Shown piece after piece: positions 61,120-63,404 of a stretch of 64,000 bases of DNA. The notes under the pieces were generated by a model that was given only the letters and a program-made list of their open reading frames with translations, was not told where the DNA came from and ran no database searches. Source of the stretch: Methanothrix thermoacetophila PT (GTDB taxonomy: Archaea; Halobacteriota; Methanosarcinia; Methanotrichales; Methanotrichaceae); the NCBI RefSeq assembly GCF_000014945.1, contig NC_008553.1:868001-932000 (forward strand), in the 5' to 3' direction. Both the position numbers and the translations under genes were made by a program. Positions within the stretch are counted from its first letter, which is position 1. Every line of letters starts with the position of its first letter.

Positions 61120-61597
61120 TTTGGTTATGGCATCACACTTTTTGAATGAAATGGGCAAATAAATATTCAAATTACAATCACCTGATATAACTTAATTTGA
61201 TGATTTTTCTTCTTTTTGAACTTATTATTATCATAATGAATATAGTATTTGTTTGATATCACATATACAAATTGAGTTACATGATTTATTAATTTTTTGG
61301 AGAAAAAGCTGTATTGGATGAGTCCACCAAAACCGTACGTATAGGTCTCATCTGATCGAGAACGTGAATTAGCAAAAGAATCAATATCTAGAGATCAATT
61401 TTTGGGGAATTATTCAACACAGCACACGCGAGCAATGCTGTGTTGAATAATGTTTGAGAATTCGATAGCATAGACTGAATTCATATAAATACCAATCCTG
61501 GCAAAAATCGATAGCAATCGACTCCAGAGCTATTAGTTAATCAAAACAGCACACACGAGCAAAATCTTTTATCCGGATAGATCCTCAGCACCCGTGA
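61120..61597. other. AT-rich intergenic region with fossil IS ends
   Basis: 478 bp between the transporter operon and the broken channel gene. AT-rich from 61130 to 61300. It holds the palindrome 61409-61451 and a related imperfect block at 61536-61563, both resembling the ends of the IS at 61686-62673. No gene is supported. Confidence 0.45.
61409..61451. repeat. Palindrome made of two outward-facing IS-end-like arms
   Basis: Arms ATTATTCAACACAGCA (61409-61424) and its exact inverse (61436-61451) flank an 11-base loop. TGCTGTGTTGAATAA differs by one base from the terminal repeat TGCTGTGTTGGATAA of the neighbouring element, and the arms are arranged like a right end followed by a left end. 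Confidence 0.7.
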
Positions 61598-61685
61598 ATG
61601 AGCTCGGAAATCAGGCATCGTGTCTACAGGCTACTTGAGCCCGGCGACGATGCGGGAAGATATATCGATCTCTTCATAATTTGCC
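61598..61685 (+). pseudogene. 5' fragment of the interrupted K+ channel gene
   Basis: 29 codons and one base from ATG 61598 encode an N-terminus ending in ...AGRYIDLFIIC, the beginning of the first membrane helix (S1). The frame is cut by the IS element at 61686. Joining base 61685 to 62683 restores the frame into the downstream channel sequence. Confidence 0.85.
61677..61685 (+). repeat. 9-bp target-site duplication, left copy
   Basis: TAATTTGCC directly before the left end of the IS; the same nine bases follow the right end at 62674-62682. Confidence 0.88.
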
Positions 61686-62673
61686 TGCTGTGTTGGATAA
61701 GTAGCTTTATATTCATATATTCTCTCTTATTCTTTCAAGAATCTTCGTCATAATGTTATACGCTTAAAATTATAGTATAAAATGTGAACATCCTGCGTAC
61801 TTCGCGAATCATGCCTTCCTTCGAAGTGGCCCTCACAGTCTCGCCAAATATCCTCTTAATTGCTGAGAATACACTTTCAGCCGCCCACCTTCTTCCATAT
61901 CCATGCACAATTTTCCAACTGTGGTATCCATACTTCATAAACTCAAGAACTGGTTCGGCTCTGGACGAGCCTGCTTTGACGATAGCATTCTTCCTGATCT
62001 TGATTCCAGGCATATCTACGCCCTTCTCTTTCATGAAATCGAATACCCCCTCCTTATCATAAGCTCCATCCATCAGTGAATCTTCAAGCTTAACATCTTC
62101 CAGCAGCGGTTTTACCATCTCATGATCAGTGACGGTCTCATCGGTTATCTCGAAGGTTACGGGCTTCCTTGTTTCAACATCTACGGCGATATGCACTTTT
62201 ATCCAGCCTCTGCGTTCAACACCATGACTTTCTCTCATCCAGTCGCCTCTATTCGTAACCTTCATTCCTGTTGAGTCAACTGCGACCACTAAATCGTTAT
62301 CAGGTATTGGAATATTCAACTCCAAATTCGTAATCCTCTGCCATAATGTCGAATAATCGGCAGCCAACAGCCCAGGAACAAATCCGCTTAGCGCCTGAAT
62401 AAATCCTTCGAGCTGCCTGTATGGTAAATGAAGAAAGGCGTATGCTAAACCACAAAATTGAATAAATGTCTCAGGATAGCGATAGGGTCTGCCATTCTTG
62501 TTCTTATTCATCTTCAGTAGCTCTTCATCCCAATTATTCACAAAGTCAGTGCTAAGGTAAAACCATCCTCGCCTAACCAATTTCTCATTGTATTCGCGCC
62601 AATTGCGGTTATCCTCATAGGCCATGAAATATATTATATATTTTCCTAGTTTAAATAGTTATCCAACACAGCA
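61686..62673. mobile_element. IS5-family insertion sequence (988 bp)
   Basis: Terminal inverted repeats TGCTGTGTTGGATAA are perfect over 15 bp at both ends (61686-61700 and 62659-62673). The element contains a single transposase gene on the reverse strand and is flanked by the 9-bp duplication TAATTTGCC. Size, single gene, DDE transposase and 9-bp duplication fit the IS5 family, IS903-like group. The intact ends, intact transposase and perfect target duplication point to a recent insertion. It interrupts a voltage-gated K+ channel gene. Confidence 0.92.
61756..62625 (-). CDS. IS5-family DDE transposase
   Basis: 289 residues, apparently intact. DDE residues: Asp in VVAVDSTGMKVTNRGDW (near residue 117), Asp in SLMDGAYDKEGVF (near 195) and Glu in YGRRWAAESVFSAIKR, which fits the R-x3-E-x6-K signature of IS5-type enzymes. 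The N-terminal part (NKNGRPYRYPETFIQF) is the helix-turn-helix region of the family. It catalyses cut-and-paste transposition of the surrounding element. Confidence 0.93.
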   Translation of the reverse strand: MAYEDNRNWREYNEKLVRRGWFYLSTDFVNNWDEELLKMNKNKNGRPYRYPETFIQFCGLAYAFLHLPYRQLEGFIQALSGFVPGLLAADYSTLWQRITNLELNIPIPDNDLVVAVDSTGMKVTNRGDWMRESHGVERRGWIKVHIAVDVETRKPVTFEITDETVTDHEMVKPLLEDVKLEDSLMDGAYDKEGVFDFMKEKGVDMPGIKIRKNAIVKAGSSRAEPVLEFMKYGYHSWKIVHGYGRRWAAESVFSAIKRIFGETVRATSKEGMIREVRRMFTFYTIILSV

Positions 62674-62682
62674 TAATTTGCC
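62674..62682 (+). repeat. 9-bp target-site duplication, right copy
   Basis: TAATTTGCC directly after the right IS end, identical to 61677-61685. Confidence 0.88.
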
Positions 62683-63404
62683 TCATAGTTCTCAACGTCA
62701 TAGCGGTGATGCTCGAAACCGTCTTGTGGATCAGCGCGCACTATGCCTCTCTCTTCAGGGCCTTCGAAATCTTTTCCGTCGCAGTGTTCACCATCGAGTA
62801 TATTCTCAGGGTATGGTCGTGCACAGTCGATCCCCGCTTCAGAGAGCCCATCCGTGGAAGATTGAGATTCATGGTAACACCGCTTGCAGTTATTGATCTG
62901 CTTGCATTCCTGCCGTTTTACCTGCCCTTTGTGCTGCCAGATACAAGAGTTCTCAGAGTGGTCCGCCTCTTCCGGCTGTTCAGAGTCATGAAGCTCGCAA
63001 GGTACTCGGAGTCGGTCGATCTCTTCATCGACGTCCTCAAGCTGAAGAAGGACGAACTTCTTCTGGTCTTTGTATCCATAATGATACTTCTCCTGGTCTC
63101 ATCCACACTGATGTACGAGGTGGAGCACGACGCACAGCCTGATAAATTCTCATCGATACCCGCAGCCATGTGGTGGGGCCTGGTGACGCTGGCAACCGTC
63201 GGCTACGGAGATATGTTTCCCATAACACCAGCTGGCAAGCTCATAGGCTCTATGGTTGTGATGCTGGGAATAGGTCTATTCGCGCTGCCTGCGGGCATAA
63301 TCGCATCCGGCTTCAGCGAGGTTCTTCAGAGGAGAAGGGAGTGCCGTGAGATCATATGCCCTCACTGTGGAAGACCGATAAAAGAGGAGATGATATACAG
63401 ATAA
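62683..63404 (+). pseudogene. Voltage-gated K+ channel gene, 3' part, cut off by the IS
   Basis: The frame continues from the 5' fragment (LIVLNVIAVMLETVLW) and encodes the rest of a six-helix Kv-type channel: S4 voltage sensor with regularly spaced Arg (RVLRVVRLFRLFRVMK), pore helix AMWWGLVTLATVGYGDMFP with the selectivity filter TVGYGD, S6 (GSMVVMLGIGLFALPAGII) and a short tail with CPHCGRPIKEE. The uninterrupted protein would be 269 residues. The longest frame from a start codon now begins at GTG 62706 and lacks the N-terminus and part of S1, so a working channel is doubtful. A TrkA-type K+ regulator is at 14.8 kb. Convergent with pyrG, 6 bp away. Confidence 0.88.

Follow-up and report, generated by a model that had tools for sequence, protein, structure and literature searches.

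The window analysed here (64,000 bp, G000:C1:868001-932000) is part of the single-contig genome (1,879,471 bp) of an acetate-consuming Methanothrix methanogen, and it includes a gene for a Kv-type K+ channel into which an insertion sequence (IS) of the IS5 family has been placed. The features of this locus, in window coordinates, are as follows.

61436-61551, plus strand: diverged 116-bp MITE-like element with IS-like ends, 46 bp before the channel start codon (end matches; family alignment)
61598-61685, plus strand: 5' part of the Kv-type K+ channel gene, covering the N-terminus and the first third of S1 and ending in the left target duplication (joined frame; orthologues align from residue 1)
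61677-61685, plus strand: left 9-bp target-site duplication, TAATTTGCC (flank comparison)
61686-62673, minus strand: IS5-family insertion sequence, 988 bp, one of nine 100% identical genomic copies
61686-61700, plus strand: left terminal inverted repeat, TGCTGTGTTGGATAA (end match)
61756-62625, minus strand: IS5-family DDE transposase, 289 aa (Pfam PF13737 and PF01609; NCBIfam NF033579)
62659-62673, minus strand: right terminal inverted repeat (end match)
62674-62682, plus strand: right 9-bp target-site duplication, TAATTTGCC (flank comparison)
62683-63404, plus strand: 3' part of the channel gene, with the remainder of S1, S2-S3, S4, S5-P(TVGYGD)-S6 and the CPHC tail
62706-63404, plus strand: longest leftover ORF, GTG start, 232 aa, the channel without residues 1-37

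A first-pass annotation of this DNA had described a 988-bp element with 15-bp perfect ends and identical 9-bp flanks (TAATTTGCC), and the description proved exact to the base (61686-62673). The inverted ends (TGCTGTGTTGGATAA) are identical at 15 of 15 bp, after which the match breaks off. When the IS and one duplication were removed by joining 61685 to 62683, the single 269-residue channel frame that had been proposed was obtained, running open for 269 codons from the ATG at 61598 to 63404, with the insertion point inside S1 of a six-helix Kv-type K+ channel. The joined frame contained no other stop or frameshift in the channel gene outside the IS, and the lineage-specific changes in the rest of the gene were limited to mostly conservative ones. 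Left unjoined, the locus consists of a 51-aa ORF running into the IS and the 232-aa ORF starting at the GTG at 62706. The repeat is not a chance one, because eight further 100% identical copies of the 988 bp are found elsewhere in the genome, and the IS-interrupted channel gene is confirmed as a real structure.

Against the Pfam family Ion_trans (PF00520), the joined protein scored 121.9 bits (E = 3.2e-35) and covered profile positions 2-239 of 241, while the 232-aa truncated piece scored 106.7 bits with a match starting at profile position 33. The K+ selectivity filter T-V-G-Y-G is present, as TVGYGD, in the joined translation, as is an S4 segment with an arginine or other basic residue at every third position (RVLRVVRLFRLFRVMKLAR), in agreement with the Kv-type channel with S4 sensor and TVGYGD filter that had been read from the DNA at first. 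By domain, filter and S4, the interrupted gene is predicted to encode a Kv-type voltage-gated K+ channel (here Kv1). Among solved sequences, animal Kv4 channels and their Kv relatives came closest (E ~1e-33), the best PDB match being Kv4.2 (7e87, E = 9e-34), with which it has in common the S4 arginines at every third residue, TVGYGD and nearly the whole PF00520 profile. Unlike these Kv-type channels, the Methanothrix protein has no N-terminal T1 domain and carries a short CPHC tail. The model for MVP-type hyperpolarisation-activated channels (NF040645) was rejected, the truncated form reaching 58.7 bits against a cut-off of 300. A second Kv paralog (Kv2) is intact in the same genome (G000:C1:1715296-1716009). 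At their ends, both channels carry cysteine motifs, namely CPHC for Kv1 (window 63340-63401) and a zinc-ribbon-like CxxC pair in Kv2 (L064); to our knowledge, such motifs at the channel end are unusual for Kv channels.

The state of the site in relatives was read from the five other species of the genus (G042-G046), with one genome per species. Across 50 genomes of the family, the channel search gave some match in 45, and a full-length orthologue was present in all five congeners, free of stops, 81-83% identical and alignable from residue 1 to 264-267. In every one of them the DNA crosses the join gap-free at the insertion point, at 78-80% identity over ~345 bp, and none of the five carries an IS at the orthologous channel site. 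The other species thus hold an empty site, which makes the insertion a derived state of the present lineage; an ancient shared insertion is rejected, as 0 of 5 relatives have the IS there. The gene neighbourhood is also shared: a dipeptide-type ABC permease gene and a pyrG-like glutamine amidotransferase gene are common neighbours in G042, G043 and G046, which have the ABC-transporter side upstream of the channel in common with this genome, and G044 and G045 share the neighbourhood at least on the 3' (downstream gene) side of the channel. In the channel gene tree, the present genome falls outside the five congeners (support 94).

These comparisons support the first-pass annotation in its interpretation of a recent IS5-type interruption of the channel gene. 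It had named two observations that would speak against this reading, a joined protein that does not align over S1 and relatives with the IS in the same place and decayed flanks; the protein aligned over S1 from residue 1 in all five congeners, and none of the five had such an insertion. The word recent also agrees with the nine identical copies, the perfect duplications and a channel gene with no other lesion. Once an exchanged pair is allowed for, the target duplications of all nine copies are perfect, and together with the identity of the copies and the undamaged channel they point to a recent, if undated, event. Gene conversion among the copies could mimic part of their identity, which leaves the recent date less secure than the derived state. 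Relaxed constraint on the gene since the insertion was considered and dropped: changes confined to this lineage number 1/6/6 at codon positions 1/2/3 (a small set, biased by the outgroup filter), compared with ~4/3/13 in single sister lineages; because of the filter bias and the few changes, these counts cannot date the insertion. One assembly represents the genome; in a mixed culture population, the interrupted and the empty state could coexist.

We are highly confident that an active IS5-family element inserted into an intact ancestral channel gene and inactivated the channel in this lineage. The element went into codons 27-30 of the ancestral six-helix Kv channel gene and duplicated 9 bp of the target, and the frame from the native start now stops inside the IS after 51 codons. 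The consequence for the protein is seen in the frame itself, and from it we infer the loss of activity. The downstream ORF has lost the N-terminus along with most of S1 and, judging from its sequence, probably does not encode a functional voltage-gated channel; with its GTG start and open frame, it could in principle yield a truncated membrane protein. Since the second Kv paralog remains in the cell, loss of the channel was likely tolerated. In a literature search restricted to papers available without subscription, no earlier account of this channel gene being interrupted by an IS was found.

It is very improbable that the insertion represents one state of a phase-variation switch, in which the IS would excise precisely and turn the channel back on. 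The exact duplication and the intact downstream gene would permit a clean restoration, but precise excision is rare for IS5-family elements, and no sign of repeated use of the channel site was seen among the five congeners. Least probable of all is an assembly artefact in which a repeat copy was misplaced in the channel gene, for although the copies are identical and two have mismatched flanks, a misplaced repeat would not make a 9-bp duplication where relatives hold one orthologous copy, and for the channel copy this reading is rejected, given its target duplication and the relatives' empty sites.

The identity of the element as IS5-type, also given in the first-pass annotation, was upheld by the transposase, which scored 250.8 bits over residues 7-283 against NCBIfam NF033579 (IS5 family; cut-off 140). 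Candidate catalytic residues, placed by sequence motif, are D117 (VAVDSTG), D186 (LMDGAYD) and E250 (AAESVFSA). In common with the IS5 family (NF033579; candidate subgroups by duplication length, the IS903/ISH1-like groups), it has a 289-aa DDE transposase covering the full model, a length of ~1 kb, inverted ends and duplications of 8-9 bp. The relatives of the transposase with named records were mostly from Methanosaeta/Methanothrix MAGs. A 79% identical transposase is found in a MAG labelled Pelotomaculum (L059, MVQK01000101.1), by horizontal transfer or misbinning.

Genome-wide, there are nine copies of the IS, 100% identical across 988 bp. Seven have perfect 8-9 bp duplications and the other two have swapped ones; the duplication is 8 bp long in most copies and 9 bp in the channel copy and one of the inversion pair described below. 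No obvious common sequence was apparent when the target duplications of the copies were compared. Identical copies here and different sites in relatives are indirect evidence of transposition by the IS. Its family appears to have spread in bursts within the genus. Genes for PF01497-type binding proteins are interrupted at L001, at L008 and at site X, with a split PF01497 match on both sides of the IS at L001 and with the first codons of the gene affected at site X; the three hits are also given as L001, L008 and the L002/L004 join. In all, 3 of the 14 PF01497 genes above cut-off in the genome are interrupted by the IS. Two of the three interruptions are apparently in the same C-terminal region, as judged by eye. 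L003 is inside a transposase-like ORF. L006, L007 and L009 are outside genes and near starts, the first two upstream of genes and L009 (G000:C1:190137) just before one. The eight other copies, the inversion and the related short upstream elements were absent from the first-pass annotation.

Copies L002 (G000:C1:1272609-1273596, minus strand) and L004 (G000:C1:1053123-1054110, plus strand) have no duplication of their own. Instead, the left flank of L002 pairs with the right flank of L004 (AACTTTTT), and the left flank of L004 with the right flank of L002 (TTTCCAAAT). Because the copies are in opposite orientation and their duplications are exchanged, an IS-mediated inversion of ~219 kb between them is the simplest reading. 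Un-inverting the segment restores two frames across the joins, one for a PF01497-type binding protein and one for a 258-aa methyltransferase-like protein. At the first un-inverted join, G045 and G046 align continuously over 245 bp (81% and 79%), whereas in the present arrangement the relatives align only as far as the break; for the second un-inverted join, no match was found among the relatives. The alternative is that the assembly of the sequenced genome was swapped between identical repeats. Opposite orientation, exchanged duplications and an un-inverted join in relatives are shared with other IS-mediated inversions between inverted copies, and nothing is unusual in the present one except its size, 219 kb.

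Upstream of the channel gene, the MITE-like element at 61436-61551 is absent from the corresponding 43-bp gap of a relative (L015), and as it stands before the start codon, the upstream region differs from that of relatives beyond the IS. Approximately ten MITE-like copies of 112-116 bp are found in the genome, at G000:C1:328204, 337115, 341281, 797595, 814995, 826997, 987476, 1109977, 1377656 and 1736653. Like MITEs that share the ends of an autonomous IS, they are short, have ends (TGCTGTGTTGAATAA) resembling those of the IS and are mostly flanked by 8-bp duplications; as far as compared, their interior is unrelated to the 988-bp IS. We infer that they are mobilised by its transposase. A candidate second MITE lies at about 61309-61424, with only its right end matching well. 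At window 61410-61450 there is a palindrome of the 15-bp IS end with an 11-bp spacer, and an imperfect repeat of the 26 bp surrounding the end is present at 61537; this palindrome is possibly a decayed second MITE beside the 61436 element. Further upstream, three relatives share a non-coding block of ~55 bp (window 61251-61307, TTACATGATTTATTAATTTTTTGGAGAAAA) with 86-93% conservation.

In the MAGs of G044 and G045, some contigs terminate in an end of this IS, with 99-100% identity over 77-141 bp. The G044 contigs C63 and C106 (L071/L065) are the two sides of one insertion with an 8-bp duplication (GAGAAACC), and this insertion is at codon 5 of Kv2 (ATG TCA GAG AAA CC|IS). Kv2 is uninterrupted in 5 of 6 genomes, the present one among them. 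By eye, no target motif common to the two channel insertions (TAATTTGCC and GAGAAACC) was found. In G045, contigs C5/C8 (L107, L106) show an insertion with the duplication ACTGTGTG; its site is the orthologue of the L009 site in this genome (ACTCTATG) and is empty in G042 and G046. The empty sites, together with the channel gene tree, suggest two independent insertions at one site in two species, the alternative being an old insertion with loss in other lineages.

The interruption of a conserved gene by an IS is an ordinary, common event, and the present one is slightly more interesting because in a relative the same IS broke the other Kv gene, and on this chromosome it apparently inverted 219 kb. 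The recurrence on K+ channels is suggestive and was noticed post hoc, as was that on binding proteins, over many possible gene families. We consider it probable that the IS samples its targets neutrally, with a start-proximal or AT-rich bias, and that the K+ channel is one hit among others. Its nine copies are scattered around the genome, several insertions fall on gene starts or shortly before them (X, L006, L007 and L009, and codon 5 in G044), and the target duplications have no obvious common sequence. Against this stand two Kv paralogs among ~14 known sites (chance ~7e-5) and at least three binding-protein genes among the nine copies (~4e-5 under uniform insertion), both values being uncorrected and post hoc; the chance that the five sites in relatives would include one or more Kv hits is ~0.4%, again post hoc.

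It is rather unlikely that breaking Kv channels, and with them the PF01497 metal/cobalamin-type binding proteins, was advantageous in the culture or digester and that the insertions were retained for this reason. Such selected loss would fit with the same IS having broken Kv1 here and Kv2 in the G044 MAG, with the interruption of 3 of 14 PF01497 genes, and with a published map of recently active IS in archaea, in which the genes next to such IS in Methanosaeta thermophila PT are reported to be enriched for ion transporters (ER = 19.38) (Zhou et al. 2008, PMC2246112). However, the channel events are only two, all five congeners have an intact Kv1, an intact Kv2 is present in all but one of the six genomes, and the published enrichment may count the same channel insertion and is therefore not independent. 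More doubtful still is the wider proposal that a single IS family repeatedly strikes Kv channels in thermophilic Methanothrix and that these hits are selected, with different paralogs lost in parallel across species; if it were true, parallel channel loss would mark conditions where Kv channels are a liability.

With the gene model corrected, this genome has lost a channel kept by its five sequenced congeners, and the 232-aa ORF should therefore be called a pseudogene fragment. For following recent genome change in Methanothrix, the IS is well suited as a marker, given its nine identical copies, its same-site insertions and the 219-kb inversion. Should K+ channel loss be recurrent, strains with intact and broken genes would offer a natural test of the poorly known role of a voltage-gated channel in an archaeon.
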